Positions 8,449 through 27,106 of a stretch of DNA of 39,607 bases are shown here, in pieces. The stretch is from a virus, in IMG/VR virus record IMGVR_UViG_3300049432_000198, positions 1-39,607 of that record. One strand, written 5' to 3'. The position numbers were made by a program, and so were the translations under genes. The notes under the pieces were generated by a model, which was not told where the DNA came from, did not search any database, and saw only the letters and a list, made by a program, of their open reading frames with translations. Positions within the stretch are counted from its first letter, which is position 1; each line of letters opens with the position of its first letter.

Positions 8449-8492
8449 GGTGGCGACGCTAACCGCGGCCGCCGTCCAACTTCGCGCTGGTC

Positions 8493-8520
8493 CTGTTGTA
8501 GCGGGCCGTTCCTACAACAG
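8493..8520. promoter_or_regulatory. Late dyad 1 (putative Ogr-type activator site, P/O divergent region)
   Basis: A 28-bp element with perfect 9-bp arms CTGTTGTAG and CTACAACAG around the spacer CGGGCCGTTC. It is the exact reverse complement of dyad 2 at 15608-15635. In P2 the divergent P and O promoters are controlled by Ogr at a dyad near -55; this site occupies the same place. Read in the leftward direction its spacing to the P start matches the other copies. The rightward gene O starts 111 bp away, so its promoter geometry differs. Confidence 0.75.
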
Positions 8521-8630
8521 GCCTCGCTTTACCCCTCCCCCCCTCCCGGTTCCATTTGGCGGCGACCGGCGCGCTTCGCTTTTCCCCCCGGCGGGGCGCG
8601 CCGGCACCGACATTTAGGACCGGAGCCATC

Positions 8631-9482
8631 ATGCCTCTCACCCGCTTTTTCCGCATCGCTGTCGAAGGCGCCACCGTCGATGGCCGCACGATCGACCTCA
8701 ACTGGATCAATGAGATGGCGGCCGGCTACGCCCCGGCCACCTACACGGCCCGAATCAATTGCGAGCATATCGCCGGCTTCAGCCCCGAGCCGCCTTTCAA
8801 CGCCTACGGCTCCGTCGTTGCCCTCCGCGCGGTCGATTTCGACATGCAGCTCGACGGCAAGACCGTCAAAAAGCGGGCGCTCGAAGCGCAGTTCGACGTC
8901 AACGACCAGCTGCTCGCGATCAACAAGAAGGGCCAGAAGCTCTTCACCTCCTGCGAGATCTCGCCCAACTTCGCCGGGACCGGCAAGGCCGGCCTGGTCG
9001 GCCTCGCGATCACCGACAATCCCGCTTCCCTCGGAACCGAGATGCTGGAGTTCGCCGGCAAGGCGAAGGTGAACCCGCTCGCGGCCCGGAAGACGGACGC
9101 CGGCAACCACTTCTCCGAAGCGATGGAGGTCTCCTTCGAGCTGGACGCTGGCGCCGGCGCCGGCGCCGACGACTGGACCTCCAAGCTGAAGGGCGTCCTT
9201 GACGGCTTCGCCGCCAAATTCAGTGGCGGCGCCCAGGAGCTGCCGAAGAAGGAAGAGCCCGTTGCGGGCGCCCCCTTCGACCAGGCCGCGTTCGCGACCG
9301 AGCTCGGCAAGGTCGTGACCGCGGCGATCGGCACCTACGCGGCGAAGGCCGACGGCCAGATCGCCGCCCTCTCCGGCCAGGTCACCGAGATGAAGGGGAA
9401 ACTGGAAACGACCGACGCCAGCTCGAATCGCCGCCCCCTCGGGACCGGCGAGCAGAGCAACTTTGCCAAAACCGACTGCTGA
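8631..9482 (+). CDS. O: Capsid scaffolding protein and maturation protease (P2 gpO-like)
   Basis: This 283-aa protein scaffolds procapsid assembly and cleaves itself and other head proteins. The N-terminal serine-protease domain shows Asp17 (VDGRTIDLNW), His46 (INCEHIAGF) and Ser107 (FTSCEISPNFAGTGKAG). These fit the D-H-S triad known for P2 gpO, with Ser at the identical position. The C-terminal half (about 150-283) is a helical, Ala/Lys-rich scaffold region. Start chosen at ATG 8631 after CCGGAGCCATC; an in-frame extension to 8556 is low-complexity and unlike the family. First gene of the rightward head operon. Confidence 0.93.
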   Translation: MPLTRFFRIAVEGATVDGRTIDLNWINEMAAGYAPATYTARINCEHIAGFSPEPPFNAYGSVVALRAVDFDMQLDGKTVKKRALEAQFDVNDQLLAINKKGQKLFTSCEISPNFAGTGKAGLVGLAITDNPASLGTEMLEFAGKAKVNPLAARKTDAGNHFSEAMEVSFELDAGAGAGADDWTSKLKGVLDGFAAKFSGGAQELPKKEEPVAGAPFDQAAFATELGKVVTAAIGTYAAKADGQIAALSGQVTEMKGKLETTDASSNRRPLGTGEQSNFAKTDC

Positions 9483-9513
9483 CCCGCCCCGTCAGACCGA
9501 CAAGGAAACCCAG

Positions 9514-10656
9514 ATGCACAGAGCTACCCGCGCCCTCTTCAACGCCTATGTCTCGCAGATCGCGCTCCTGAACGGGATCGACGTGGCCGATGCGACCACC
9601 AAGTTTTCCGTCGATCCGCAAGTCGAGCAGAAGCTCGAAGCGCGCATGCGCGAGCAGAGCGACTTCCTGCAGCGCATCAATATCGTCCCCGTCATCCAGC
9701 AGGAGGGCGAGAAGGTCGGAATCGACGTCAGCGGCCCGATCGCGAGCCGGACCAACACGGCCGCCGGCAACCGGCGCAACCCCGGCGACCCGACCAACGA
9801 CGGCGTCCTCGGCCGGTATCACTGCCGGCAGACCAACTTCGACCATAGCCTTCGCTATGCGAAGCTCGACGCCTGGCGCCACAAACCCGAGTTCCAGACG
9901 ATCATCCGCGATGTCATCCTGCGCCAGCAGGCCCGCGACCGGATCATGGTCGGTTTCAACGGAACCCACGCGGCCGTCCAGACCGACAAGGTAGCGTTCC
10001 CGCTCCTGCAGGACCTCAACGAGGGCTGGCTCACCAAGATTCGCACCAATACCCCGGCGCGCGTCCTCGATGACGGCGAGCTGACCGACCCGGTCATGGT
10101 CGACGGGAAGGACACCAACAAGGCGATCTATGTCGCCGACAACGTCGAGCTCTACAACGAGGCCGCCAACAACGGCGCCGGTAACGCCGACACGGCCCGG
10201 GCCGACTACGTCAACCTCGACGCCTTGGTGAAGGACGCGGTCCGCCTGATCGATGAATGGCATCGCGACGACACCGACCTGGTCGTCATCGTCGGCCGGG
10301 ACCTGGTGGACGACAAATATTTCCCGATCATCAACCAGGCCGCCAATACCGCGACCGAGATCGAAGCTCGCGATCGCATCCTCGCCTCGGCGAAGCAGAT
10401 CGGCGGCCTCCCGGCCGTGCGCGTTCCGTTCTTCCCGGCGAACGCGCTGCTCATCACCCGGCTCGATAACCTCTCGATCTATTGGCAGGAGGAGACGCGG
10501 CGCCGGCAGCTGAAGGACGAGCCCGAGTTCGACCGCATCGCCAATTATGAGAGCGTCAACGAGGATTATGTGGTCGAGGAATACGGCCTCGTCTCCCTTG
10601 TCGAGAACATCCGCGTGGCACCGAAGCCGGCGCCCGAGCCGGAGGAGGGGGCGTAA
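9514..10656 (+). CDS. N: Major capsid protein (P2 gpN-like)
   Basis: The 380-aa product is the HK97-fold shell protein. The start MHRATRALFNAYVSQIALLN lines up with the N-terminus of P2 gpN, so ATG 9514 is preferred over an in-frame start at 9463 that would overlap gene O. Other family segments are FSVDPQVEQKLEARMREQSD, INIVPVIQQEGEKVGI, GRYHCRQTNFDHSLRYAKL, VGRDLVDDKYFPIIN and DRIANYESVNEDYVVEEYG. Gene order O-N-M is conserved with P2. Proteolytic trimming by gpO is expected from P2 but cannot be read from the sequence. Confidence 0.96.
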   Translation: MHRATRALFNAYVSQIALLNGIDVADATTKFSVDPQVEQKLEARMREQSDFLQRINIVPVIQQEGEKVGIDVSGPIASRTNTAAGNRRNPGDPTNDGVLGRYHCRQTNFDHSLRYAKLDAWRHKPEFQTIIRDVILRQQARDRIMVGFNGTHAAVQTDKVAFPLLQDLNEGWLTKIRTNTPARVLDDGELTDPVMVDGKDTNKAIYVADNVELYNEAANNGAGNADTARADYVNLDALVKDAVRLIDEWHRDDTDLVVIVGRDLVDDKYFPIINQAANTATEIEARDRILASAKQIGGLPAVRVPFFPANALLITRLDNLSIYWQEETRRRQLKDEPEFDRIANYESVNEDYVVEEYGLVSLVENIRVAPKPAPEPEEGA

Positions 10657-10680
10657 GCCCCCGCCTGAGGAGCTGAACCG

Positions 10681-11418
10681 ATGAGCCTCGCCCGTCGCCA
10701 CCAAGCCCGCGTTCTCGCGCGGATCGCTACCGCGGCCGCCGTCGCCGCCGTTCGGCCGCCCTCGGGGCCGGAGGCGACGGAGTACGAGCATCAGAGGGCG
10801 CGCCTCGGCGTCGATCTTCGCCGGCTGAAGGAGCTTCAGTCGATCGAGGCGAAGATCGAGCTGAAGCGTCAGCTGCTTCCCGCTTACGTTCCCTGGGTGG
10901 ATGGCGTCCTCGACGCGGAGGCCGCCGGTCAAGGCGGCTTTCAGGACGACATCTTCACCCAGGTCATGGTCTGGCGGATCGACGTCGGCGATTTCGAGGG
11001 CGCGCTCCCTCTTATCTCGTACGTCCTCCGCCACGGCCTCGCCCTGCCCGAGCGCTTCGAGCGCACGGCTGCAACCATGATCGCAGAGGAGATCGCCGAG
11101 GCTGCCATCAAGCGTCTTGGGCAGGGCGAGGATTTCGGTTTCGATCTGCTTCAGCAGGTCGACGGCCTGACGGCCAAAGAGGACATGCCGGACCAAGTCC
11201 GCGCGAAGCTTCAGAAGGCGATGGGCCTGCAGCTCGTCCGGTCCGCCGCGGCGATCGAGCCCGGTGCCGACGGGCCCGCGGGCGGCAAGCGGGCCGCGAT
11301 CGAGGGAGCCCTGCGGTTCCTCCGTCGCGCGCTCGAGCTGAACCCAAAGGCGGGCGTGAAGGCAGAAATCGGAAAGCTGGAGCGCGAGGCGAAAGCCCTC
11401 GCGCCGCCGGCAGAATAG
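10681..11418 (+). CDS. M: Terminase small subunit (P2 gpM-like endonuclease subunit)
   Basis: This 245-aa protein pairs with gpP to recognise and cut cos DNA. Family segments are the basic N-terminus (MSLARRHQARVLARI), QSIEAKIELKRQLLPAY, the acidic DIFTQVMVWRIDVGDF region and ALPLISYVLRHGLALPERF. The length matches P2 gpM. It follows N by 24 bp with a GAGGAGCTGAACCG ribosome-binding region. The last 30 residues are Lys/Ala-rich. Confidence 0.93.
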   Translation: MSLARRHQARVLARIATAAAVAAVRPPSGPEATEYEHQRARLGVDLRRLKELQSIEAKIELKRQLLPAYVPWVDGVLDAEAAGQGGFQDDIFTQVMVWRIDVGDFEGALPLISYVLRHGLALPERFERTAATMIAEEIAEAAIKRLGQGEDFGFDLLQQVDGLTAKEDMPDQVRAKLQKAMGLQLVRSAAAIEPGADGPAGGKRAAIEGALRFLRRALELNPKAGVKAEIGKLEREAKALAPPAE

Positions 11419-11575
11419 TTTCGCCAGGCGGATCCTCCGCCAGGCTCACCAGCTCGCCCCACGGCGCTCGGGGGGCGGAGAAGCGACCGAAGGCGAAGCT
11501 CGATCGAGCCGTTACCCCAGGTCGACTCTCCCCACCCCCCGCTAGCCGCGGGGCGAACCAACCCGGAGGCCGAGC

Positions 11576-11818
11576 ATGGCCGAAGACTTCGACGTCCGCC
11601 GCCTCCGCCTCCGCCCGGGCGATTCCCTGGTCGTGCGCGTCCCGACGGCATCCTTCCTCGGCCGCGACCGCGGCGGCCCTTCCCGGGCCCAGATGATCGC
11701 CGGCTCGTTTCGGTCGACTCTCGACCAGGCCGGGCACGCGCGCGTCCCCGTCCTGCTCGTTTCCGAGGAGGTCGACCTCGCGGTTCTGGACGGCGGCACG
11801 CTGGCGAATTTCGGCTGA
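11576..11818 (+). CDS. Small phage protein between M and L, unknown function
   Basis: An 80-aa product starting MAEDFDVRRLRLRPGDSLVV with no recognised domain. It begins like proteins predicted to be mostly beta (RLRPGDSLVVRVP) and ends VDLAVLDGGTLANFG. Its stop codon overlaps the ATG of L (TGATG), which supports translation. The preceding 157-bp gap holds two GC hairpins, GGCGGA/TCCGCC near 11428 and CCCCGC/GCGGGG at 11537-11553, without T-runs; a processing site or cos-related structure are possibilities I cannot distinguish. Confidence 0.6.
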   Translation: MAEDFDVRRLRLRPGDSLVVRVPTASFLGRDRGGPSRAQMIAGSFRSTLDQAGHARVPVLLVSEEVDLAVLDGGTLANFG

Positions 11819-12303: not shown

Positions 12304-12515
12304 TGGCGGCGGCTCTCATCGTGCGCGCCCGCGCCGGCGAGACGCTGGACGCCTTGGTCTGGCGCGTCGTCGGGACGTCGGCCGTCGAGCCGGTTCTCGA
12401 AGCCAACCCCGGCCTGGCCGCCCTCGGAACGCTGCTCCCCGAGGGCCTGGCCGTCGCCCTTCCCGCCGCGGCCGCGGCGCCCTCGGAGCCTTCGGTTCCG
12501 CAGCTCTGGAATTGA
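12303..12515 (+). CDS. X: Tail protein X (P2 gpX-like)
   Basis: A 70-aa protein starting with GTG directly at the L stop. The pattern RARAGETLDALVWRVVG and VLEANPGLAALGTLLPEGLAVALP is the short LysM-like fold of the P2 tail protein X family, essential for tail assembly. The C-terminus is Ala/Pro-rich. Location after L matches P2, where X is followed by the lysis genes. Confidence 0.92.
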   Translation: MAAALIVRARAGETLDALVWRVVGTSAVEPVLEANPGLAALGTLLPEGLAVALPAAAAAPSEPSVPQLWN

Positions 12516-12517
12516 TA

Positions 12518-14473: not shown

Positions 14474-14477
14474 GCAA

Positions 14478-14984: not shown

Positions 14985-15472
14985 TGGCCGAGACAATCAG
15001 CATCGAGGAATTCGGGGCGTATCTCGCCGGCTTCGTCGCCCGGCTCGAGCCGGGCCAGCGAAAGAAGATGGGTCTCCGGATTGCCGCCCACCTTCAAAGG
15101 GCCCGCAGCAAGACGATCGGCGCCAACGTCGACCCTGACGGCCGCCCCTTCGAGCCGCGCAAGCCGCGCCGACCGCTCCGCGGCGCCGCCAAGGTCGAGA
15201 AGCGGAAACGCAGCATCAAGGACCGAAAAATGTTCCTACGGGCCCGCACCGCCAAATTGCTGCGGAAGCAGGCCACGGCCGATGAAGCGAGCGTCGGCTA
15301 CACCGGCGCCGTGGGCCGAATCATGCGGGTTCACCAGGAAGGCCTGAAGGATCACGTCGAGCGCGATCGGTCCTCCCCCGTCGTGCAATACCCGGTCCGT
15401 CGGCTTCTCGGCATGAACGAAACAGACCAGGAGGCCATTCTCGACATCGTCCTGGCCAGCCTCAGCGAATAA
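14984..15472 (+). CDS. S: Tail completion protein (P2 gpS-like)
   Basis: A 162-aa, very basic protein of the P2 gpS family. Key segments are RLEPGQRKKMGLRIAAHLQR, a zone of DPDGRPFEPRKPRR that is typical of the family, MFLRARTAKLLRK, and VGYTGAVGRIMRVHQEG. The end LLGMNETDQEAILDIVLASL matches gpS-like proteins. It is the last gene of the unit that begins with O; a hairpin follows six bases after the stop. Confidence 0.9.
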   Translation: MAETISIEEFGAYLAGFVARLEPGQRKKMGLRIAAHLQRARSKTIGANVDPDGRPFEPRKPRRPLRGAAKVEKRKRSIKDRKMFLRARTAKLLRKQATADEASVGYTGAVGRIMRVHQEGLKDHVERDRSSPVVQYPVRRLLGMNETDQEAILDIVLASLSE

Positions 15473-15477
15473 AAAAA

Positions 15478-15497
15478 GGGCGCCGTCGCCGGCGCCC
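15478..15497. terminator. Hairpin after S, end of head/lysis unit
   Basis: A perfect 8-bp stem GGGCGCCG/CGGCGCCC with loop TCGC. Seven A residues lie directly on its left side, so on the minus strand it has the form of an intrinsic terminator (stem then T7); on the plus strand it lacks a T-run. It may stop readthrough in either direction between the S and J units. Confidence 0.6.
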
Positions 15498-15607
15498 AGT
15501 TCAGGGATGAGAGGGGAGAGCGCAGGTTACATGGCTGCCTCCTTTGCGGGCCGCGTCGGCGGGGAGGCTTCAAGCTAGGGCCGCCCCGGCCCAGCGACAG
15601 CGGGCCG

Positions 15608-15635
15608 CTGTTGTAGGAACGGCCCGCTACAACAG
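15608..15635 (+). promoter_or_regulatory. Late dyad 2 (putative Ogr-type site before J)
   Basis: Arms CTGTTGTAG and CTACAACAG flank the spacer GAACGGCCCG. It is identical, in gene direction, to dyad 1 read toward P. The centre is 57.5 bp upstream of the ATG at 15679 and 48.5 bp upstream of the in-frame ATG at 15670. The stretch from 15498 to 15607 before it holds no gene. Confidence 0.75.
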
Positions 15636-15678
15636 CCCCGCCTAGCGGCCGTGGCGGCCGCCGCCCGACATGGCGGCG

Positions 15679-16578
15679 ATGCCTGGCAGCTCCTCCTCAA
15701 CGGCCGTCGACCTTTCGCGCCTGCCTCCGCCTACCGTGGTGGAGCAGCTTTCCTATGAGCAGCTGCTGGCGGAGCGGATTGCCCGCTTTCATGAACTGGC
15801 GCCCGAGTGGGACGCGACGGTCGAGTCCGACCCGGTAATGAAGCTCCTCCAAGAGAACGCCTACCGCGAGCTGCTGATCCGCCAAGACTTCAACGACCGC
15901 GCCCGCAGCATCATGATCGCCTTCGCCGCCGGCGCCGATCTCGATCAGCTGGCGGCCTTGGTCGGCGTCACCCGGCTCGAACTCGCGCCCGCCGATCCGG
16001 TCGCCAGCACGGCCGCGATCATGGAAGACGACGACTCGCTGCGCGTCCGCGTGGTCCTCGCGCCGGAAAGCTTTTCCGTCGCCGGGCCCGAGCTCGCCTA
16101 CGTCTTTCACGCCCGCTCGGCCGAGGCGGATGTCCTCGATGCCAGCGCCACCAGCCCGGCGCCGGGCGAGGTCCTCGTCACGGTCCTTTCACGCTTGGGG
16201 AACGGCGAGGCCTCGGCCGAGCTGCTCGCTGCCGTGGAGGCCGTCGTCAACGGTCGCGAGGTCCGTCCCCTTACCGACCTCGTCACCGTCCAGTCCGCCG
16301 ACGTCGTGGAATTCGCCGTCGCGGCGAAGCTCTACATTTATCAGGGCCCCGATTCCTCCGTCGTCACGGCCGCCGCAGACGCAAGCCTGCAGAACTATCT
16401 CGCTAAGAACCGGCGTCTCGGCCGGGACGTCACCAAATCGGGGCTCTATGCCGCCCTCCATGTTGAAGGGGTTCAGGACGTCGACCTGATCTCCCCGGCG
16501 GCCAGCCTCGTTCTCGGCGCAACGCAGGCGCCCTGGTGCACGTCGATCACTCTCACCTCCGCAGGGGCTGGCGAGTGA
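15679..16578 (+). CDS. J: Baseplate assembly protein (P2 gpJ-like)
   Basis: The 299-aa product is the P2 gpJ / Mu gp47-type baseplate wedge protein. It shows the family opening VDLSRLPPPTVVEQLSYEQL, a central VSGxxx-free core with LQENAYRELLIRQDFNDRAR and MIAFAAGADLDQLAALVGV, and the RRLGRDVTKSGLYAALHVEG block before VQDVDLISP. Two ATG codons, 15670 and 15679, are possible; the second is chosen because it places the dyad at the same distance as in the other late units. The stop overlaps the GTG start of I. Confidence 0.93.
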   Translation: MPGSSSSTAVDLSRLPPPTVVEQLSYEQLLAERIARFHELAPEWDATVESDPVMKLLQENAYRELLIRQDFNDRARSIMIAFAAGADLDQLAALVGVTRLELAPADPVASTAAIMEDDDSLRVRVVLAPESFSVAGPELAYVFHARSAEADVLDASATSPAPGEVLVTVLSRLGNGEASAELLAAVEAVVNGREVRPLTDLVTVQSADVVEFAVAAKLYIYQGPDSSVVTAAADASLQNYLAKNRRLGRDVTKSGLYAALHVEGVQDVDLISPAASLVLGATQAPWCTSITLTSAGAGE

Positions 16579-17207
16579 CGGCCGCCGCAACCCTCCTCCC
16601 GCCGAATGCGAGGCCGCTCGAACGCGCCGTCGCGGCCGCTGGCGCTCGAATCTCCGCCATCCCGATCCCGCTCCAATCGCTCTGGAATCCGTGGACGTGC
16701 CCCCTCGAACTGCTCCCCTGGCTGGCCTGGGGCCTGAGCATCGATGCTTGGGAGCCGAGCTGGACCGAAGCGCGAAAGCGGCAGGAAGTCGCGCAGGCGA
16801 TCGACCTTCAGCGGCGGAAGGGCACCCGGGCCGCGGTCGAGGCGGTCCTCGCGGCCGCGGACGAGCTGCTCGAACTGGTCGAATGGTTCGAGGCGCAGCC
16901 GCGGCTCGACCCGCACACCTTCCAAATCCGCCTCCCCCTCGGTGCCGGCGGCGGCCCTCGATCGACGGCCGCCTTTGCGGAGAAGATCGTCCGCGAGGTC
17001 TCGCGCGTGAAGCCGCTGCGCTCGCACATGCAACTCGTCCAGCTTCTGAACGCCGGCGCCGGCCTCAACATCCTCGGCGCCGCGCGCCTGGCCGGCTTCG
17101 TCCGGGTCGTCGCGACGGCCGACATGAACGCCGAGCAGTCGGCCTTCCTCAGCACCGAAACCGGCGAGCCCCTGCAGGCCGAAAACGGCGATCTCTTGGA
17201 GCGGTAA
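16575..17207 (+). CDS. I: Baseplate/tail protein I (P2 gpI-like)
   Basis: A 210-aa protein beginning with GTG that overlaps the J stop. Family features include LLPPNARPLERAVAAAGARI, the WNPWTCPLELLPWLAWGLSI block, and AIDLQRRKGTRAAVEAVL, all typical of P2 gpI. It connects the baseplate to the fibres. The C-terminal third (DMNAEQSAFLSTETGEPL) extends past the usual family length. Confidence 0.92.
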   Translation: MTAAATLLPPNARPLERAVAAAGARISAIPIPLQSLWNPWTCPLELLPWLAWGLSIDAWEPSWTEARKRQEVAQAIDLQRRKGTRAAVEAVLAAADELLELVEWFEAQPRLDPHTFQIRLPLGAGGGPRSTAAFAEKIVREVSRVKPLRSHMQLVQLLNAGAGLNILGAARLAGFVRVVATADMNAEQSAFLSTETGEPLQAENGDLLER

Positions 17208-17208
17208 C

Positions 17209-18690
17209 TTGGAAAACGAAGATCTCGCCATTGTCGTGTTCATCACCGAGGAGGGGCTGTCGGCCCTACTCGACGCGCAGCAGGGCGTGACGAATGCCGT
17301 CCGCATCGCCGAGCTCGGCCTCACCGCGCAGGCCTTCGTGCCGGCGCCGACGCTCGAGGAGCTTCCGGGCGAGTTCAAGCGCATCGCGATGGTCGCCGGC
17401 GAGGCCGTGAACGATCGCGTGATTCACATGGTCGCGCTCGATGACACAGCCGACGCCTACACGGTCCGCGGCTTTGCCCTCTACCTCGACAACGGGGCCC
17501 TCTTCGGCGTCGCGGGCCAGAGCGAGCCGATCTTCCAGAAGAGCGCCGTCTCCTCGTTCCTGCTCGCGGCCGACATCACCTTCGCCCAGGCCGTGGCCGA
17601 GTTGATCGAGTTCGGAGACACGAACTTCCTCTATCCGCCGGCAACCCTCACCCGAAAGGGCGTCGCCTACCTCGCCAGTGATGCCGAGGCGGCCGCCGGC
17701 CTCGTCGACGACAAGATCCTCACCCCCAAGGGAGCGAAGGGCGTCTACCTGCGCCTTGCCTCAATGGGCGTCGAGGGTGGCTGGGTGCCGTGCGGCCCTG
17801 GGCAGAAGATCCCGCCGCAATATCTACCTGCCCAGGATTCGATCGATACCTATTACGCGGCGAGCAACGCTGAGATGACGGCGCTCGCGGCCGCGGGCCC
17901 GGGCGACTTCTGCCAGCGAACGGATCTCACCAAGACCTATCGCCTCGCCGCGGCGCCGCCAAGCGTCCTTGCCAACTGGGTTGAGTTTCTCAGCCCGGGC
18001 GCGCCGGTCCGCACTGTCAACGGCGAGATCGGCGACGTCGTCCTGACGGCCGCCAAGGTCGGCGCTCCCCCGGTTGGCCGCTCGCTCCTTGGCGGCGGCC
18101 TCGCCCAGGGCGGCGGCAGCTTAGCCGCCGATCGCACGATTACCGTCCCGGCGGCGAGCCGGGCCCAGGCCGAGGCGGGCGCCGCTACCGACGTTGCCCT
18201 CACACCCGACTCGATTGCCGGGATCCTCGCGCTGCTTTCCGGCAGGGTCCCGGGCGGCCGCCAGATCCTCGCTGCCGGCCTGGCCCAGGGCGGCGGCGAT
18301 ATGACGGCTGATAGGATCATCACCGTCCTCGCCGCGTCGGCCGCCGACGTTTTCGCCGGCACGGCGAACGATCGGGCGATCACCCCGGCGGCCCTCGCCG
18401 GCCTGCCCCATACGCTCGGACCCTCTGGCGACTTTGTCCTGCCGGGCGGTCTCCGGTTCAAATGGGGCGACGCCAGCGTCTACCTCGGAAGCCAGGCCGT
18501 CTACTTCCCCGAGGCCTTCCCCGTGGCCTGCTGGCAAGTCTTTCTGACCTTCTACGGCAACCCGAACAACGGCGATGAGTCCGACGAGCCGATGTGGGTC
18601 CAGCGCCCGCTCTCTCCCGGCAGCTTCATCATCTCCACCGCCGGCGACCGCCTGCAGGTCCCGGTGGGCTGGTTCGCGATCGGAAATTGA
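17209..18690 (+). CDS. H: Tail fibre protein (P2 gpH-like, Gp53-like C-terminal domain)
   Basis: A 493-aa fibre with an apparent TTG start immediately after I. The N-terminal 200 residues (FITEEGLSALLDAQQGVTNA, FVPAPTLEELPGEFKRI) resemble the P2 fibre attachment region (DUF3751-like). The middle has two copies of a repeat of the form R-x-L-x-GGLAQGGG-x-x-x-ADR-x-IT, at about residues 285-305 and 347-368. The C-terminus GGLRFKWGDASVYLGSQAV ... FPEAFPVACWQVFLTFYGN ... VGWFAIGN is like the Gp53-type receptor-binding tip. It would contact the host surface. Confidence 0.85.
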   Translation: MENEDLAIVVFITEEGLSALLDAQQGVTNAVRIAELGLTAQAFVPAPTLEELPGEFKRIAMVAGEAVNDRVIHMVALDDTADAYTVRGFALYLDNGALFGVAGQSEPIFQKSAVSSFLLAADITFAQAVAELIEFGDTNFLYPPATLTRKGVAYLASDAEAAAGLVDDKILTPKGAKGVYLRLASMGVEGGWVPCGPGQKIPPQYLPAQDSIDTYYAASNAEMTALAAAGPGDFCQRTDLTKTYRLAAAPPSVLANWVEFLSPGAPVRTVNGEIGDVVLTAAKVGAPPVGRSLLGGGLAQGGGSLAADRTITVPAASRAQAEAGAATDVALTPDSIAGILALLSGRVPGGRQILAAGLAQGGGDMTADRIITVLAASAADVFAGTANDRAITPAALAGLPHTLGPSGDFVLPGGLRFKWGDASVYLGSQAVYFPEAFPVACWQVFLTFYGNPNNGDESDEPMWVQRPLSPGSFIISTAGDRLQVPVGWFAIGN

Positions 18691-18692
18691 CG

Positions 18693-19178
18693 ATGATCTA
18701 TTGGAGCCCCTCTTCCGGCTTTCAAAGCCGCGCGACCCACGGGAAGGCAATCGACCAGGCCGCGGTCCACATCAGGCCGTCTCGCCACCGCGAGCTGGTC
18801 GCGGCCCAGGCCGCCGGCGCGGAGATCTACGTCGGCAAGGGCGGGCGCCCCTACATTCGGCGCCCGCGCGAGAACCTCGCTCACCGGCGGGCCTTCGCCA
18901 TAACCTGCATCAAGCGCGAGGCCCGCCGGCGCATCCTGCTCGTCGCTCCGGAGTGGCGCCAGGCCAACGACACCGCAGCAATCGCCCGCGCCGCCTTCCA
19001 GCTCAATGCAACGATGACGACGAACGTCGAGACCTCGGCGGCCTTCGCGAGGATGGCCGCGATCGACGCGCTGCGCGCTGCCTCTGACCGCATCGAGGCG
19101 GGCGTCGCGGGCATGACCGGGCCCGAGCTCGAAGCCTTTGATCCCTCGGCCGACAATCACTGGAACCCCGCGCAATGA
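18693..19178 (+). CDS. Fibre-associated protein, unknown function
   Basis: A 161-aa protein between two fibre genes. It opens MIYWSPSSGFQS, similar in style to tail-fibre assembly proteins, but the rest does not match a chaperone family I can name. A basic middle section (RAFAITCIKREARRRILLVA) precedes a helical C-terminus with Met-rich repeats (FARMAAIDALRAASDRIE). Its stop overlaps the ATG of the large fibre (ATGA), so translation is coupled. A role in folding or attaching the preceding or following fibre is inferred. Confidence 0.55.
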   Translation: MIYWSPSSGFQSRATHGKAIDQAAVHIRPSRHRELVAAQAAGAEIYVGKGGRPYIRRPRENLAHRRAFAITCIKREARRRILLVAPEWRQANDTAAIARAAFQLNATMTTNVETSAAFARMAAIDALRAASDRIEAGVAGMTGPELEAFDPSADNHWNPAQ

Positions 19179-22042
19179 AAGTTAGCAGGCTCAAGATCGA
19201 GCATCCCGCGGCCCCGCTCAGCGGCGCCGATATCGTCCCCGTCGTGCAGGATGACGGCAACGGGAACAAGGAGACCCGCGGAACGACGATCGCGGACCTC
19301 GCGGCCGCGGCGCGCGCGCCGATCGCGGCCGAGTTGAACGGCGGCGCCTCCGCCTATGGTGTCTGGCTTCAGCAGCCGGGCAATGCCGGCAAGACCCAGG
19401 CGCAGTTCCTCGAAAGCCTTCGCGGCCCTGCCGGCGGGCAGGGTCCGGCCGGCCCGGCCGGTGTCGGGCCCGCAGGCGCCGCAGGGGCGCAGGGCGCGCA
19501 GGGTCCACAAGGTCCGCAGGGCCCCAAGGGCGACGCCGGCAACGCCGGCGCACAGGGGCCCGCCGGTCCGCAGGGACCGCAAGGCTCGCAGGGGCTGAAG
19601 GGCGACGCCGGCAACGCCGGCGCTCCCGGCGCCGCCGGGGCAAGCGGCGCGGACGGCGAAGATGGCGCCCCGGCGCGGACGCTTTACGTCTCCTCGGACA
19701 AGCAGCAGTTCACCTACGACTCCGTCGGCGCCCTTAGCCCAGCCGGCCAGGTCATCACCCTCACCGCGAATCGGCAGAACAACACCGGCGCGCTGACCTG
19801 GGCCGCGACTGCCTTCAACGCGGCCGGCGCCGCGATCGGCGCCGTCCAGCTGCGCACGACGGCCGCGGGCACTACGGCCGCTTCGAACCAGGGCACCGTC
19901 TATCTTCAGTCCGGTCAGCTCCCCGCTGGCACAAAGAGCATCGTCGTCACCGCGGCGTCTGGCGCTCCGGACAATGTGAGCGACATGCTCAGTGCGGTCT
20001 GCGTTCAGGATGGCGCCCCGGGCGCCTCCGCGAAGACCATCTACCTCACCTCGAGCCAGCAGCACTTCAAGCTGAACGCCCAAGGCGCCTACGCGCCGCC
20101 CGGGCAGGTCGTCTCCCTCACCGCCAACCGTCAGAATAACGCTGGCGCGCTCAGCTGGTCGTCGGCCGCCTACGACGGCGCCGGCACCTACCTGGGCGCC
20201 GTTCCCCTGCGCACGGCCGCGGGGGGAGCGACGGCCGCGACGAACCAAGCCACGGTCTATGCCAATTCGGGCGACGTTCCGGCCGGAACCGTTGGGATCC
20301 TCGTCACCGTGACGAGCAGCGCGCCGGACAATCTCAGCGACACCCTCAGCATCGTCTTCATGCAGGACGGCGTCACGGGCCCGTCGGGCCCGGCTGGGCC
20401 GGCCGGCCCCGGTGGCGCGCCCGGGCCCGGCGGAGCCCCAGGCCCCGGCGGCCCGGCCGGCGCGGATGGCGCGCCGGCGCGGACGATCTACGTCACCTCC
20501 GATAAGCAGCAATTCCTCTACAGCGCGGCAGGCGCCCTCTCGCCGGCACTTCAAGTCATCGCCCTCACGGCCAACCGGCAGAACAATGCCGGTGCGCTCA
20601 GCTGGGCCGCGACCGCCTACAACGCCGCCAACGCTTCGCTCGGCCCCGTGTCGCTCCGGACGACGTCCGCGGGCACGACGGCCGCCACGAACCAGGCCAC
20701 CGTCTACCTTCAATCCGGCGTCCTCCCGGCCGGGACAAAGAGCGTGATCGTTACCGCGACTTCCAGCGCTCCCGACAATGTCAGCGACATGCTCAGCGTC
20801 GTCTGCGTTCAGGACGGCGCCGCCGGCGCAGCCGGCGCGAACGGCGCCGCCGGCTCGAACGGCGCGGACGGCGCGCCGGCGCGGACGATCTACGTCACCT
20901 CGGACAAGCAGCAGTTCATCGTCAACTCGGCCGGCGTCCTCGCGCCCGCGGCCCAGGTCGTCGCCCTCACCGCGAACCGCCAGAACAACGCCGGCGCACT
21001 CAGCTGGTCGGCGACCGCCTACAACGCCGCCAACGCTTCGCTCGGCCCCGTGGCGCTCCGGACAACCTCCGCGGGCACGACGGCCGCCACGAACCAGACC
21101 ATCGTCTACCTTCAGTCCGGCCTTCTCCCAGCCGGGACGAAGAGCATTGTCGTCACCGCGGCGTCCGGCGCTCCGGACAATGTTAGCGACATGCTCAGCG
21201 TCGTTTGCGTTCAAGACGGCGCCGCAGGAGCGCCTGGGGCGCCCGGCGCGCCGGGCGCGGGGGGAGCGCAAGGCCCAGGCGGCCCGCAAGGCCCTGGGGG
21301 CGCTCCGGGCGTCAACGGCATCGATGCGCTCACCGTCAGCGCCTCGCCGCCGGCTATCACCGTCCCCTGCACTTCGACAGGGACTCCGATCAATGCGGTC
21401 CCCGGCTTCTCGATCACCGTCTACAAGGGCGGCCTCGACGTCACCAACTCGGCCACGGGCACGACCTACACCGTCATCGATTCGGGGGGAATGTCCGGCT
21501 TCGCCAACGCAGGGAACGGCGTTTTCAACAATGTCGGCCTGGTTGGAGACGTGGGCTGGATCGATGTCAGGGTCGCCAACGGCGCCACGGCGATTATTCG
21601 AGTGACCTATACCAAGGTCCGCGCCGGCAGCTCGGCAACCGCGTCGGTCCCGACCCACATAACCTATGTGAACGATTCTCCGACCTATGCCGCTGTCGCC
21701 GTCCTCAGCGATATCGCCGTGGCGAACGGGCTGACCCTCTCGGCCGACGCGAACGTATCTTGGTTTCGAAGCGGCGGCTACCAAAGCCAGGGCAAGCTCA
21801 CCTATCAGAATATCACCGATGGCGGCCCCGAGGTCGACTTCCCGGGATCGGAGGCGATCGGCTTCGTCGGCAACCTCGCGCAGCCCGGGGAGCCCGCTTC
21901 GCCGAACGGCCTTTCGAGCGCCGGGACTTGGACGAACAGCCTGGGCGCGACGAAGGTCATCAGGGTTCGGTTTTATTTCCGCCGCACTTCCGGCACCGGC
22001 GCCTCAAGCGGCGTCGACGGCTATTTGGGAGGCCACACATGA
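19175..22042 (+). CDS. Large collagen-like tail fibre with four Ig-like repeats
   Basis: This 955-aa protein starts with an attachment region ([20 protein letters not shown]). Gly-X-Y triplets follow (about residues 83-165) with one interruption at GVGPAG. Then come four related domains of about 115 residues: the first two are nearly contiguous, and a second collagen block and a short Gly/Ala linker separate the rest. Each repeat contains ANRQNN-x-GAL-x-W and a segment like [10 protein letters not shown]-x-VCVQDG. A third collagen block precedes a roughly 230-residue C-terminal domain ([20 protein letters not shown] onward), the likely receptor-binding tip. Collagen blocks predict trimerisation. 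The gene probably determines host range. Confidence 0.85.
19673..21220 (+). repeat. Four tandem coding repeats inside the large fibre gene
   Basis: Repeats begin at about 19673, 20027, 20473 and 20875. Copies three and four are the most alike; both contain an identical stretch of about 35-40 bp around 20620 and 21016 (coding [12 protein letters not shown]). Copy two is the most diverged. The similarity could allow unequal recombination and gain or loss of repeat units. Confidence 0.8.
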
Positions 22043-22575
22043 TCGCATTTTTCCGGGCCGATACGGGCCGCGTCGTCAAGGTCAGCAGCGGGCACGACGC
22101 TATCCCCGAGGGCTGCGAGTCGATCGAGCTGGACGCGGCCGCGACCGCCCTGGCGGCCGAGGGCCGGTCCCTGCTCGTCGTGGACGGCCTGGTCGTGGAG
22201 GATCTCGCCGCACTGGAAGCCATGCTCTTCACCCGCATCGACGCCGAAGCCGGCGCCGCCCGAGCTTGCCTGCTCACGATCGCACCCGGGCAGGAGCTGA
22301 CCTACCTCGACAAGGAGGCGGAGGCCCGGCGCCTGGTCGACGGCGTCGATCCGGACCCGGCGGCTTTCCCGATGCTGGCGCCTGAAGCGCAAGCCTGCGG
22401 GGTCGACCTCGGAACTCTCGCCGTCATCGTCATCGAGAAGGCCGACGAAAGCCGCCGGGCCCGTGGAGCGATCGAGGCATTGAAGGCAGGAGCGAAGATG
22501 GCTGTCGCCGCGGCTGAAGGACGCGCTGCGAAGGAAGCGGCCGCCGTCGTGAACTGGGGCACGACCGCCTCTTAG
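22039..22575 (+). CDS. Tail fibre assembly / DUF4376-like protein
   Basis: A 178-aa protein whose ATG overlaps the fibre stop (ATGA). Its layout fits small tail proteins: an N-terminal beta region ([20 protein letters not shown]) and a C-terminal helical module of the form PGQELTYLDKEAEARRLVDG ... EAQACGVDLGTLAVIVIEKA ... GAIEALKAGAKMAVAAAEG. This recalls the DUF4376-type domain of tail-assembly proteins; the identification is from pattern memory. A chaperone role for the fibre upstream is likely from position. Confidence 0.6.
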   Translation: MIAFFRADTGRVVKVSSGHDAIPEGCESIELDAAATALAAEGRSLLVVDGLVVEDLAALEAMLFTRIDAEAGAARACLLTIAPGQELTYLDKEAEARRLVDGVDPDPAAFPMLAPEAQACGVDLGTLAVIVIEKADESRRARGAIEALKAGAKMAVAAAEGRAAKEAAAVVNWGTTAS

Positions 22576-22948
22576 AAAAGAGAGGGGAGGGCCCGGCGGC
22601 GCCAACCGCGCGGACCGCGGGCTGTCACCCGCACCTCCCACGGCCCGGGCCGCGCTTGGTCTCCCCACCGGGCACACCGGCGGGCCGCTTGAACCCAATT
22701 CCACAAAGGGAGTCCAGCACGATCGGCCCGGCCGAGGTTCCCGGCCGCATGTTGTAGGGCGGCCTTCCTACATCATCGGCAGGGATGGCGAGGCGGCCGC
22801 GGCGCGATAGCTCCTACTAGTCGACGGGCCCAGGCCCCCGGCCGGGCGCCGCCAACGCCCGCTAACGACGGGCTGTCACCCGTACCTCGCTCGCTTGTCG
22901 AGCTCGGCCGCGCCGGCCTTACGGCGCGGCAAGGTATGGGTTGCGATC
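22576..22948 (+). promoter_or_regulatory. Long leader before com, containing two related hairpins and a dyad
   Basis: This 373-bp stretch has no convincing gene. It contains a hairpin at 22617-22632, late dyad 3 at 22749-22776, and a second hairpin at 22868-22883. The hairpins are GCGGG-CTGTCA-CCCGC and ACGGG-CTGTCA-CCCGT; the outer pair changed G-C to A-T while the pairing was kept. The resemblance extends to flanking CGCCAAC about 15-20 bp upstream and ACCTC downstream. The closing pairing GGCCCGG/CCGGGCC around the first copy may form a larger stem. Function unknown. Confidence 0.6.
22749..22776. promoter_or_regulatory. Late dyad 3 (before com-mom)
   Basis: A diverged copy: arms ATGTTGTAG and CTACATCAT around the spacer GGCGGCCTTC. 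The spacer matches the other copies better when read on the minus strand (GAAGGCCGCC). The nearest downstream plus-strand gene, com, begins 172 bp away. It may be a weaker or differently used site for the same activator. Confidence 0.6.
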
Positions 22949-23161
22949 GTGAAGGAATCACACCGCTGCGCCGGTTGCGGGGCGCTTTTGTTCAAAGCCG
23001 CAAGGGCCGCGATTGCCGGCCTGATCGAGATCAAGTGTCGGCGCTGCGGCGCCTTCAACACCCTGAGGCCCCTGAGCCCTTCCCCGACCGCCGACAGAGC
23101 GGCCGCCAGGAGTTCAGCTTGTGGACCTCGAAACTGCCAATTCCCGCCTGGTCGACTTTGA
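22949..23161 (+). CDS. com: Com-like zinc-finger translational regulator of mom
   Basis: A 70-aa protein, close to Mu Com in length. It has C7-x2-C10 (HRCAGCGALLFKA) and C30-x2-C33 (IEIKCRRCGAFNTLRP), the zinc-binding pattern of the Com family. In Mu, Com binds the com-mom mRNA and opens the mom translation start. GTG at 22949 is chosen because it puts the first Cys pair near the N-terminus as in Mu; an upstream TTG at 22895 would add 18 unrelated residues. The 3' end overlaps the start of mom by 41 bp in another frame, the same nested arrangement as in Mu. The C-terminal half is not conserved-looking. Confidence 0.85.
   Translation: MKESHRCAGCGALLFKAARAAIAGLIEIKCRRCGAFNTLRPLSPSPTADRAAARSSACGPRNCQFPPGRL
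23110..23129 (+). promoter_or_regulatory. Possible stem-loop over the mom start
   Basis: The mom Shine-Dalgarno AGGAG (23108-23112) is partly paired in a weak stem: GAG (23110-23112) with CTC (23127-23129), a T/C mismatch, then TC with GA. The GTG start (23121) falls in the loop. In Mu a stem-loop hides the mom start until Com binds. The stem here is short, so this is a hypothesis. Confidence 0.35.
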
Positions 23162-23921
23162 CCGCCCCGTCTTCGGCGTCGCCGGCGAGTCGACCGGCTA
23201 TCTCTTCGCCCCCGGTGACGGCCGCGAGCTCGTCGGCTTCGGAAGCTACGAGTTCAGCGTCCGGATCATGGACCGGAAGCTCGCCAACGACGTCATCCTC
23301 GCGAACCACTACAGCGGCACCTACTACCGCGGCACGACGACGCACCTGGGCGTCTTCATGGGCGACCGGCTCGTCGGCGTGATCCAGTACGGCTATGCCC
23401 TCAACCCGGCCCGGGCGGGCAGCGTCGTCACCGGCACGGCCATGAACGAATATCTCGAGCTGAACCGAATGTGGCTCTCCGACGAGGCCCCGCGCAATTC
23501 CGAGAGCCGCGCCCTGGCCGCCTCGATCCGGCTGATCCGGCGGCTGCGGCCCGCGGTGAAGTGGATTCAATCCTTCGCCGACGAGCGCTGCGGCCTCAAC
23601 GGGACCGTCTACCAGGCCGCCGGCTTCACCTATCACGGCGAGCACAAGACCACCTTCCTCGAACTCGACGGCGAGTTCTTCCACCCTCTGCTGCTGACGA
23701 AGACGGCCGGCCACCATCAGCCGAAGCCGCAGCGGCTTCTCGCTGGCCTCGATCGTGTTCAGCGCCATACCTATCGGCAGTTTAGGTACCTGAGATTCCT
23801 GCAAAATCGGTTTGCCAAACACTGCCGGCATCCGGTAAGACCCTTCCCGAAACCCGACTATGCGGCCTGTCCAGTGGACGAGCGGGGCACCACCCCGTGC
23901 GAGCAAGGCGCAACCCCTTGA
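23121..23921 (+). CDS. mom: Mom-like DNA adenine modification protein
   Basis: The 266-aa product matches phage Mu Mom, a GNAT-like enzyme known to convert adenine in DNA to N6-carbamoylmethyladenine, which blocks many restriction enzymes. Visible conserved blocks: YEFSVRIMDRKLANDVILAN, NHYSGTYYRG then THLGVFMGDRLVGVIQYGYA, EYLELNRMWLSDEAPRNSES, WIQSFADERCGLNGTVYQAA and FTYHGEHKTTFLELDGEF. All lie within residues 30-195. The last 65 residues (YRQFRYLRFLQNRFAKH and a Cys-containing tail) are variable in the family. GTG start with a good Shine-Dalgarno eight bases upstream; overlaps com. A strong hairpin follows. It probably protects phage DNA during infection of restricting hosts. Confidence 0.92.
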   Translation: MDLETANSRLVDFDRPVFGVAGESTGYLFAPGDGRELVGFGSYEFSVRIMDRKLANDVILANHYSGTYYRGTTTHLGVFMGDRLVGVIQYGYALNPARAGSVVTGTAMNEYLELNRMWLSDEAPRNSESRALAASIRLIRRLRPAVKWIQSFADERCGLNGTVYQAAGFTYHGEHKTTFLELDGEFFHPLLLTKTAGHHQPKPQRLLAGLDRVQRHTYRQFRYLRFLQNRFAKHCRHPVRPFPKPDYAACPVDERGTTPCEQGATP

Positions 23922-23952
23922 GGCCGCTCCACTCCTAACCAGCCCCCGGGGA

Positions 23953-23983
23953 CCGGCAGCAGCGGATAGTCCGCTGCCGCCGG
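23953..23983 (+). terminator. Hairpin after mom
   Basis: A long stem CCGGC-GCAGCGGA paired with TCCGCTGC-GCCGG, with a single A/C mismatch and a TAG loop. No T-run follows, as is common in GC-rich genomes. It separates the com-mom unit from the next dyad 24 bp downstream. Confidence 0.6.
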
Positions 23984-24006
23984 CCCAACCCGGTTCATGG
24001 CGCCCG

Positions 24007-24034
24007 CTGTTGTAGGAGCGGGCCGCTACAACAG
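24007..24034 (+). promoter_or_regulatory. Late dyad 4 (before second fibre cluster)
   Basis: Arms CTGTTGTAG and CTACAACAG with spacer GAGCGGGCCG. The centre is 56.5 bp upstream of the ATG at 24077. It directly follows the post-mom hairpin, so a new transcription unit probably begins here. Confidence 0.75.
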
Positions 24035-24076
24035 CGGGGCCGCGCCTCGGTCCGCCCTGTCCGCCAGAACGGCGAC

Positions 24077-24613
24077 ATGCTGAATTTTCGGCCAGGTGAG
24101 AGCCCAAGCTGGCAAATCTACGTCTTCGATGACGCCGATGAAGCGCGTCGCGAGGACTGCACCGGCGCCGCGCTCGACATCGATGCGACAAACCTCGGCT
24201 TCACCCCTGCGCTCGCCTGGTCCGATCGCGCCGCCGGCGCGGCCGTGCTCTCAATGACGACGCAGCAGACGGCCACCGTGCCGCCGCGGCGCAGCTTCTG
24301 GATCAGGCTTCGCCTGCAGCTGCCCGGAGGGGAGGTGGCCGTCACGGCCGACATTCCAATCCTCAGCTGGCGGGGATCGAGCGACACGACAATCGTCCGC
24401 CTGCCCGACGCCCACAACATGCTCCACCTCACGCCAGCGGAAGAGTCTGCCGTCGGCGGCGGGCCGAAGGTGGCGATTCGCTTCGGCCGCCTTGGCGCCC
24501 GCGGGCTTCCCGGTCCGGCCGGCGGCGTGGGCCCGGCCGGCCCCCAAGGCGACCCTGCCACCAACGAAGATCCGGGCGACCTGACGCTAATCTTCGACAA
24601 CCAGTTGATCTGA
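24077..24613 (+). CDS. Phage structural protein with short collagen-like tail
   Basis: A 178-aa protein starting MLNFRPGESPSWQIYVFDDA. The first 130 residues look like a beta-rich fibre or baseplate adaptor (FWIRLRLQLPGGEVAVTADI). Near the C-terminus is a short run GLPGPAGGVGPAGPQGDP of collagen-like triplets. It is the first gene of a second fibre cluster and may link that fibre to the tail. No obvious ribosome-binding site precedes it. The family is not recognised. Confidence 0.6.
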   Translation: MLNFRPGESPSWQIYVFDDADEARREDCTGAALDIDATNLGFTPALAWSDRAAGAAVLSMTTQQTATVPPRRSFWIRLRLQLPGGEVAVTADIPILSWRGSSDTTIVRLPDAHNMLHLTPAEESAVGGGPKVAIRFGRLGARGLPGPAGGVGPAGPQGDPATNEDPGDLTLIFDNQLI

Positions 24614-24623
24614 AGGAACCAAT

Positions 24624-25157
24624 ATGAGCACCCTCGCGACACGCCTGCAGGACTTCGCCACCCGCGTCGCTTCGCAGTGCAAAACGATCCTCACCCTGAT
24701 CAACGGCAACGCGGCCGACCTGTCCGCCCTCACTACGACGGCGAAGGGCAACCTGGTTGCCGCGCTCAACGAGGTGAAGGGTCTGGTCGACGCGGCCGCG
24801 ACCTCTGCTGCGGCGAAGGCGGCCATCGATGACGCCCTCGGGACGTCGACTTCGAAAACCTATTCGATCGACAAGATCCGCGACGTCGTGACGACCGCGA
24901 TCGCCGCGATCACCAACGGCGCGCCGGCGGCAATGGACCAACTCAACGAGCTGGCGGCCGCCCTGGGCAACGACGCGAATTTCGCGGCGAGCATAGCGAC
25001 CGCGCTGGCCGCCCGCGTTCGCACCGATACCGCCACTCAGGGCCTCACCACCCAGCAGAAGGCGAACGCCCGCACCAACATCGACGCCTACGGACCGGCC
25101 GAGCTCGGCAATCCCGACACCGACCTGGTCGCCGCCTTCACGGCCGGCCTCGTCTAA
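24624..25157 (+). CDS. Tail fibre-like helical protein
   Basis: A 177-aa protein, Ala-rich and mostly helical. Segments such as DQLNELAAALGNDANFAASI followed by ATALAARVRTDTATQGLT are common in phage fibre shafts and stalk connectors. The start is preceded by GAAGGAACCAAT. It lies between two structural genes with short gaps, so it probably belongs to the same fibre complex. Confidence 0.65.
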   Translation: MSTLATRLQDFATRVASQCKTILTLINGNAADLSALTTTAKGNLVAALNEVKGLVDAAATSAAAKAAIDDALGTSTSKTYSIDKIRDVVTTAIAAITNGAPAAMDQLNELAAALGNDANFAASIATALAARVRTDTATQGLTTQQKANARTNIDAYGPAELGNPDTDLVAAFTAGLV

Positions 25158-25160
25158 GCC

Positions 25161-26375
25161 ATGCCCTCGCTCGCCGTCCACCTTGCTGCCCTAGCTTCGC
25201 GGATAGCCGCGGAATTTAACGCCGTGCGCGGCGAGCTCGCCGGCGCCGGCGGCGGCGGATCTGTGCAGCTCACCCGGGCAGCGTTCGACTTGCTCGCCGG
25301 CAAGGCCGGCCTGGTGGCCGGGACGTCCTACGTTATTACAGACCAGGACGCGCTCTTCGTCGCGTTGAGCTCGACCGCCTATCTCGTAGCCACGACGGCG
25401 AAGATCTACGCGCCAATCAACCTGCTGGAGAACGGCCTCCTCGAAGAGGGCGGCCCCCCGCCGGTGATCACCGAGGGCGGTGGCACGGCGACCCTCGTTT
25501 TCGACCAGGCCGCGCAGAAGCTGAGGTTCACCGGAGGGACCGGCGGCACCGGATGCAAAGCGAGCTGGACGATCGCCGGCCTCGAGCCGGGGTTTTACAC
25601 TCTGAAATACGAGTTGAGTGAGCAGGGCGGCGCCTGCCGGCCGAAGTTCTCCCTGGGCGGCATGCTATTCGACCAACTAGGGCAGACCAACGGCGAGCGT
25701 AGCGCGACGCTTGAGACCTTGGCGGCCAGCGAAGACTTCGAGGTCACCTTCACGCCGGACAGCCCGGCGGTCCGCAAGGCGGCGATCGGGAAGCTGAGGC
25801 TCTATCGGAAGACGGTTGAGCTGACCCTCGACAGCAATATCGTTTCGGAGGACGTCCCGGTCGGGACGATCGTCGGGACGCTGCAGGGCCGAATCCCGGG
25901 ATCAACCCTCACCCTCACTGACAGCGCCGAGGGTCGCTTCGTCCTCGACGGCCTCAACATCGTTACCGCGCTGCCGCTCGATTATGAGCAGTGGCCGGGC
26001 CACGTTCTCCAAGTCACCGAGCTCGCCCCCGGCGCCGAAGGGTCGCCCCGGACTTCCGACGTGAGCGTCGGCGTGACCAATGTCGCCAACCTTCAGGTCC
26101 TTTGGGTAGACGATCCGAATATCTGGCCTGGGACGCTCTCCCTCGAATGGGCGGGCCAGCTTATGAACATGACCCCCGGCTCGGTACTCACGCTGATGGA
26201 CGACGCCGGCGGCCGCTTCATCCTCGACGGGAGCATCCTTCGCAACGTCGTGGATATGGACGACGAAAACGGCACTCAATTCTATCCGGTGATCCGCGAG
26301 ACCGTGCTGGTCGGCGTCGAGGACTCCCCGAAGGACACCCCGGTCACAATCATTGTCACCAACCAGGCCACCTAG
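25161..26375 (+). CDS. Putative fibre/adhesin with cadherin-like repeats
   Basis: A 404-aa protein. Residues about 1-20 continue the style of the preceding gene (MPSLAVHLAALASRIAAEFN). A central beta domain (about 85-210) contains FTGGTGGTGCKASWTIAGLE and FYTLKYELSEQGGACRPKF. The C-terminal 190 residues hold two related units with VGTIVGTLQGRIPGSTLTLT and AEGRFVLDG-x-N, then GSVLTLMDDAGGRFILDGSI, which resemble cadherin-like beta-sandwich repeats. It is a likely second receptor-binding or stalk protein. Confidence 0.65.
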   Translation: MPSLAVHLAALASRIAAEFNAVRGELAGAGGGGSVQLTRAAFDLLAGKAGLVAGTSYVITDQDALFVALSSTAYLVATTAKIYAPINLLENGLLEEGGPPPVITEGGGTATLVFDQAAQKLRFTGGTGGTGCKASWTIAGLEPGFYTLKYELSEQGGACRPKFSLGGMLFDQLGQTNGERSATLETLAASEDFEVTFTPDSPAVRKAAIGKLRLYRKTVELTLDSNIVSEDVPVGTIVGTLQGRIPGSTLTLTDSAEGRFVLDGLNIVTALPLDYEQWPGHVLQVTELAPGAEGSPRTSDVSVGVTNVANLQVLWVDDPNIWPGTLSLEWAGQLMNMTPGSVLTLMDDAGGRFILDGSILRNVVDMDDENGTQFYPVIRETVLVGVEDSPKDTPVTIIVTNQAT

Positions 26376-26408
26376 GAACCGAGCGCAGGCGCCGCTACTT
26401 TGACCGTT

Positions 26409-27020
26409 ATGCGAATAGCGATCTGCACTGCGACCCGGGGCTTCCCAAGGTGGCGCCATGTCCTCGCCCGCGACGGGCTGATCATGCACACGCTGCAGGC
26501 GAAGGTCATGGACGCCGGCCGGCCGGTCCAGGTCGAGCTAAAATCGATTATGGCCGAGTCGGCCCGCGTCGATGATCTCCGCACGGCCCTGGTAGGCGAA
26601 GCCTTGAGCTTCGAGGCCGATCACATCCTCTGGCTGGACGACGATCAGACCTTCCCGCCGGACACCCTCTTTCGCCTGCTGAAGCACCGCCTCCCGATGG
26701 TCGGTTGCAACCCCCGCATGCGTACCTCGCCCGACGTCCCGATCGGCGCCGCGTACAACTTGATCGCCGGCGAGCGCCGCCGGCTGCAGCCGAAGTCGGA
26801 AGGGCTAGAGGAAGTCGAATATCTCGGCCTCGGAGTCACCCTCACCTCGATCGAGATCTTCCGGCAAATCCCGCAGCCTTGGTTCGTCATGGGCCCCCAA
26901 GGCGAAGACGGCCACCTGTGCGAGCTCCTCCGAGCCCGCGGGATCAGCCCGATTGTCGATCACGGGCTATCGCTGGAGGTCGGCCACCTTGCCGAGGTCG
27001 ACCTCAAGTGGAGCCTCTGA
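26409..27020 (+). CDS. Glycosyltransferase-like protein (GT-A fold)
   Basis: A 203-aa protein opening MRIAICTATRGFPRWRHVLA. The sequence DHILWLDDDQTFPPDTLFRL (around residues 71-90) carries an Asp-rich metal-binding motif like the DxD of GT-A glycosyltransferases. MVGCNPRMRTSPDVP and VEYLGLGVTLTSIEIFRQIP follow. The protein is short for a full GT2 enzyme, with no membrane segment. It ends the second fibre cluster, so its target may be fibre protein or DNA, but nothing in the sequence fixes the substrate. TTG at 26400 is an alternative start. Confidence 0.65.
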   Translation: MRIAICTATRGFPRWRHVLARDGLIMHTLQAKVMDAGRPVQVELKSIMAESARVDDLRTALVGEALSFEADHILWLDDDQTFPPDTLFRLLKHRLPMVGCNPRMRTSPDVPIGAAYNLIAGERRRLQPKSEGLEEVEYLGLGVTLTSIEIFRQIPQPWFVMGPQGEDGHLCELLRARGISPIVDHGLSLEVGHLAEVDLKWSL

Positions 27021-27034
27021 GGGAGCGGCCGCCG

Positions 27035-27062
27035 CTGTTGTAGGAGCGCGCCGCTACAACAA
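27035..27062 (+). promoter_or_regulatory. Late dyad 5 (before V)
   Basis: Arms CTGTTGTAG and CTACAACAA (one end mismatch) around GAGCGCGCCG. The centre is 58.5 bp upstream of the V start at 27107. It begins 14 bp after the stop of the glycosyltransferase-like gene, with no hairpin between. Confidence 0.72.
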
Positions 27063-27106
27063 CGCCCCCGCGCACCGGCGCCGCTGATGCCGCACGATGG
27101 GCGGCA

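Follow-up and report, generated by a model that had tools for sequence, protein, structure and literature searches.

The five 28-bp dyads that divide the late genes of IMGVR_UViG_3300049432_000198, a P2-like phage record (39.6 kb, 68% GC), are very probably the operators of the phage's late regulon, activated by the Ogr-type protein encoded at 35716-36054. This reading, which rests on comparative sequence analysis, had been put forward in the first-pass annotation together with a proposal to scan related prophages for the motif. Comparison now supports it, as the dyad and the Ogr protein co-vary across P2-like phages and the dyads share the geometry of P2 late promoters. The sites, their positions, this geometry and the co-variation are properties of the sequences themselves. 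The whole record, 39,607 nt, was analysed and is referred to below as the window.

Late-gene dyads and the genes behind them

Scanning the window with up to three mismatches, we found the motif CTGTTGTAG-N10-CTACAACAG in exactly the five copies first reported (at 8493, 15608, 22749, 24007 and 27035), with no further copies in the rest of the record and none in 100 dinucleotide shuffles of it. The half-sites are spaced as TGTTGT-N14-ACAACA, the inner TGT and ACA being separated by 14 nt. Dyad 1 (8493-8520, minus strand; no mismatches) lies between the leftward terminase/portal genes and the rightward scaffold/capsid/lysis genes. It is flanked by the gpP-like terminase large subunit (6619-8448, minus strand; Pfam Terminase_6N/6C/Terminase_5) and the gpO-like capsid scaffold (8631-9482, plus strand; Pfam Phage_GPO), which has an in-frame ATG with GGAG upstream. 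A P2-family capsid, the terminase small subunit and lysis genes were also recognised. Dyad 2 (15608-15635, plus strand; no mismatches) is the candidate operator of the unit running from baseplate J to the tail fibres and is followed by the Baseplate_J gene (15679-16578, plus strand), whose listed start is 15670, while the promoter geometry fits 15679. Dyad 4 (24007-24034, plus strand; no mismatches) precedes tail-type genes at 24077-26375 as their candidate operator. Dyad 5 (27035-27062, plus strand; one mismatch) is the candidate operator of the gpV, sheath, tape measure and gpD unit, led by a gpV-like baseplate spike gene (27107-27679, plus strand; Pfam Phage_base_V). Three further features of the window are recorded here as side observations: a tail-fibre gene (19175-22042) that contains collagen-like Gly-x-x stretches and modules repeating at intervals of about 402 bp, a match to an NAD-kinase C-terminal domain at 1079-1939 (PF20143, E=2e-12) that is unexpected for a P2-like phage, and a 609-aa ParB-like protein (PF02195) at the record's end (37521-39350).

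Dyads 1 and 2 had been described as exact reverse complements, and they are, over 28 of 28 positions; read along transcription, with dyad 1 taken leftward for the terminase, they are identical. Dyads 4 and 5 share a GGA...CCGC-like layout of the centre when oriented by the gene served. The site therefore has polarity relative to transcription. The earlier statement that every dyad opens a late transcription unit holds in general and needs two amendments: dyad 1 does stand at a unit start but, like its P2 counterpart, separates two divergent units (P/Q and O/N), and dyad 3 is degenerate and precedes com-mom instead of a structural-gene unit.

Dyad 3 (22749-22776, plus strand), the weakest of the five copies with three mismatches, is a degenerate candidate operator. 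The next genes encode a Com-like zinc-ribbon protein (22949-23161, plus strand; Pfam Zn_ribbon_Com, 31.1 bits against a cut-off of 22.9), presumably with a GTG start, and a Mom-like DNA modification protein (23121-23921, plus strand; Pfam Mom, E=4e-65; phrog_1384), so that a Com zinc ribbon is followed by Mom as in a Mu-type com-mom cassette. Its position behind dyad 3 is new here. In the nearest relative, L102, the gene behind the corresponding weak dyad encodes a D12-class adenine methyltransferase instead (L212:17267-18487); the slot behind dyad 3 thus seems to accept DNA-modification genes interchangeably, and an operator of the dyad 3 type would drive the ones behind it.

Promoter geometry at the dyads

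With the dyad centre as common reference point, promoters of the window and its relatives have a conserved block at +43 to +50 in the terminase-side, scaffold-side and downstream sets, with a summed information of 5.7, 5.5 and 3.9 bits, respectively, against at most 2.0 in controls. Of 60 sites on the terminase side and at downstream units, 56 have a start codon that begins at +55 to +60. In the window, the distance from dyad centre to start codon is 56.5-58.5 bp (58.5 bp for the terminase ATG on the minus strand, 56.5 bp for dyad 4 and 58.5 bp for dyad 5), which places a TGT/ACA dyad near -55 of the putative transcription start. The conserved block corresponds to -10-like sequences of the terminase promoter (8456-8463, minus strand, around ggttagcg) and the J-unit promoter (15665-15672, plus strand); by position, the -10-like blocks of the dyad 4 and dyad 5 units would be 24064-24071 and 27092-27099 (both plus strand). 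On the scaffold side, promoter-like elements of the O unit (8528-8557, plus strand) comprise TTTACC at +21 and CCATTT at about +45, both within columns conserved in relatives; TTGAG-like bases at +21 are common to scaffold-side sites, and the T at +21 is present in 25 of 25 aligned O-unit sites. No sigma70-like site was found in 15300-28300, in keeping with Ogr promoters, which have no sigma70 -35/-10 pair. This fixed promoter geometry is added here.

In P2, the annotated transcription starts lie 55-59 bp from the site centres, and V transcription begins with the first base of its own ATG (NC_001895). Since the dyad-to-start-codon distance in the window equals this P2 start-site distance, the terminase, J, dyad 4 and V mRNAs are predicted to have no leader or almost none. 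For the scaffold message, a leader with a ribosome site is predicted (ATG at 8631).

The same geometry bears on whether the dyads instead act as RNA hairpins, i.e. as terminators, attenuators or antitermination sites at unit boundaries. As RNA, dyads 1 and 2 could form a 10-bp stem (z of -2.2 and -1.8), yet the stretches at dyads 4 and 5 show no folding advantage over shuffles, no T-run follows the dyads, and a terminator scan of 15300-28300 gave no match at any dyad. Moreover, nothing ends at dyad 1, which lies between divergent genes, and the dyads lie upstream of the predicted transcript starts. We consider a hairpin role highly improbable.

The Ogr-type protein and its co-variation with the dyads

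The first-pass annotation had recognised a C-x2-C-x22-C-x4-C protein of the Ogr type at 35716-36054 (plus strand), and profile searches bear this out. It matches Pfam Ogr_Delta (PF04606) with 29.5 bits against a cut-off of 26.3 (E=7e-7), a score that is modest though above the cut-off, and the PHROG family phrog_603 'transcriptional regulator' with E=9e-16. The CX2CX22CX4C pattern can be read directly, and the gene lies downstream of a gpD-like gene (33205-34260), a P2-like placement. The protein is a true member of Ogr_Delta, a zinc-finger protein and the predicted late activator of this phage. An AlphaFold2 model has a mean pLDDT of 84, rising to about 93-98 across residues 11-70, and contains three beta strands around the cysteine pairs, residues 16-26 forming the first strand. 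No solved structure was similar to the protein by sequence or fold, and the fold search of the model returned nothing significant. Searches with the Ogr sequence alone as query did not recover a close relative.

We compared phages by way of their capsids, retrieving 80 capsid relatives; Ogr loci and the corresponding capsid regions supplied further pairs. Because GC-rich palindromes dominated an initial automatic clustering of the dyads, a position-anchored assignment was used instead. This gave 52 Ogr-dyad pairs, or 45 once close Ogr copies had been removed; the dyads were assigned semi-manually, by position, palindromy and repetition and partly by eye, which may favour tidy cases. Each of the 45 non-redundant P2-like phages has its own dyad of 26-28 bp at the same late-gene boundaries. 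In most capsid relatives, the terminase/scaffold intergenic region contains a dyad of about 26-29 bp whose arms differ, examples being CATTTCGCT, CATTTGGAT, CATTTGTAG, CAATCGTAG, CTCCTGTAT, CATCGGGTG and CCTGTGGAA. In the records read further, the phage's own dyad repeats, usually in three to five copies, at the J and V boundaries. Arms and length are thus near-constant inside one phage, whereas the arms are very different across phages. The N14 spacer recurs in L102 and in G078 (capsid 66% identical), and an N13 spacer is found in L103, L104, L106, L107 and L109. In two P2-like, Ogr-encoding phages, L131 and L152, no clear terminase/scaffold dyad was seen.

Near-identical palindromes recurring within one genome could also be recombination, packaging or dispersed repeat elements devoid of a regulatory role. 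However, in many phages the dyads stand at a constant distance from promoter-like blocks and start codons and in a constant orientation to them, and matches elsewhere are chance singletons, which makes such an origin scarcely credible. Exact searches for TGTTGTAG-N10-CTACAACA in all viral contigs and 84,980 prokaryote species returned, L102 excepted, almost only single matches at chance level; these scans therefore give no support for a host motif or for satellites sharing the operator. A scan of 369 genomes from the class of a Rhodospirillaceae MAG likewise gave singletons only.

Across the 45 pairs, arm distance correlates with Ogr distance (Mantel r=0.41, p=1e-4), and the correlation persists with capsid distance removed (partial Mantel r=0.39, p=2e-4, N=39); capsid distance explains little given Ogr (r=0.11). 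Ogr distance also correlates with spacer class (r=0.27, p=3e-4). These data are evidence, added here, that operator and activator diversify together, as judged from their sequences. Within clade A alone, the correlation between Ogr and arms is weaker (r=0.21, p=0.04), residues 18-27 giving r=0.28 (p=0.001) and the remaining residues r=0.18 (p=0.06), and in clade B the signal lies in residues other than 18-27. This weaker or different signal within clades indicates that the co-variation is real and partly bound to the history of Ogr subfamilies. The window and L102 themselves share the same N14 dyad, with capsids 95% identical and Ogr proteins (L205 in L102) 44% identical.

In a sliding-window analysis of the protein, the top segment was residues 18-23, LVRSSR (partial r of 0.46), and residues 18-27 (LVRSSREEIP) are the best candidate for a DNA-reading segment. 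Phages with a basic residue 23 or an Arg24 tend to have G at half-site position 3 (7 of 9, against 3 of 36 with neither; Fisher p=8e-5, uncorrected for kinship). Half-site position 6 is G throughout the set except in L118, L135 and the L248 record (G103), where it is C, and these are the only phages with a known dyad that have Gln in place of Arg20; L257 has Lys at this position and keeps G6. The Gln20/C6 pairing probably reflects one evolutionary event, making it a strong lead, short of proof. Residues 18-27, with the near-invariant Arg20 opposite G6 of the half-site, look like the recognition element, an assignment that is new here.

The co-variation also speaks to the possibility that another regulator owns the dyads and Ogr acts elsewhere. 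A small helix-turn-helix (HTH) DNA-binding protein (34586-35014; phrog_925) is encoded 0.7 kb upstream of ogr, and long perfect palindromes are typical of HTH dimers. Against this, the arms follow the Ogr sequence across phages beyond capsid divergence, the dyad geometry equals that of the mapped P2 Ogr sites, and the published P2 and 186 sites occupy the equivalent divergent intergenic position. Control by the HTH protein or a similar regulator is thus unlikely, and Ogr remains the preferred activator.

Known late-control systems and a proposed mechanism

The closest known counterpart is in the Ralstonia phages RSY1 and RSA1, where TGTTGT-(X)13-ACAACA precedes four late units and was proposed as the Ogr site (PMC5694545). 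These phages resemble the window in their identical half-sites, four late boundaries, Ogr homologue and lack of a sigma70-type promoter, and their sites are likewise centred -50 to -90 from start codons (PMC5694545). They differ in having N13 in place of N14, while the window has arms extending to 9 bp and an extra site before com-mom. As the site class had already been described in these two phages, the window represents a spacing variant of a known system.

P2 has a site between its divergent P and O units, as here, and an activator with the same CX2CX22CX4C pattern. The first-pass annotation had noted that arms and spacing depart from P2, and they do: the annotated P2 sites PO/PP, PV and PF (NC_001895) read TGTTGT/GGTTGT-N11 with a degenerate right half, and the published P2 consensus TGT-N12-ACA does not have the N14 spacing of the window. 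Gene order differs as well, as V belongs to a V-W-J-I-H-G operon in P2 but leads the sheath, tape measure and gpD unit in the window. The same operon rearrangement, with J-I-H apart from a V-led tail unit, accompanies the late promoters PP', PO', PJ' and PV' of phage Smp131 (PMC3931495), although only sites like TGT-N12-ACA are reported there (PMC3931495). In phage 186, one B protein site (3798-3817) serves divergent late promoters, as dyad 1 would, but it is annotated as 20 bp and is a weak dyad. Halomonas phage vB_HboP_4908 has a perfect dyad of 26 bp, CGGTGTAAGTAGCGCTACTTACACCG, whose centre lies 56.5 bp from the terminase start; its arms are unrelated to those of the window, and the stretch of that record that was read has no regulatory-site annotation there.

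We propose that the Ogr-type protein would be made once lytic growth begins and would bind each dyad, probably as a dimer whose subunits each occupy one TGTTGTAG half-site. From the bound dyad, some 56 bp ahead of the transcription start, Ogr would activate host RNA polymerase at promoters having only a weak, non-consensus -10 block. The single terminase/scaffold dyad would serve both directions, as in P2 and 186, and the terminase, J, dyad 4 and V transcripts would start at or a few bases from the start codon. Binding, dimerization, activation and leaderless starts are what we infer from the arrangement of the sites. A broader picture, to which we give even chances as a whole, is that private late operators co-evolve with Ogr and so insulate late regulons from one another in one cell, that the beta-hairpin formed by residues 18-27 of the zinc ribbon reads DNA with Arg20 contacting G6, and that late mRNAs are leaderless.

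The private pairs of operator and activator constitute a natural data set on how the Ogr family reads DNA. The 45 pairs yield predictions, namely the pairing of Arg20 with G6, that of residues 23-24 with position 3, and spacing classes of 26, 27 and 28 bp, and the pairs are candidate orthogonal switches. The com-mom cassette behind a late operator illustrates how an accessory gene may join the late programme.
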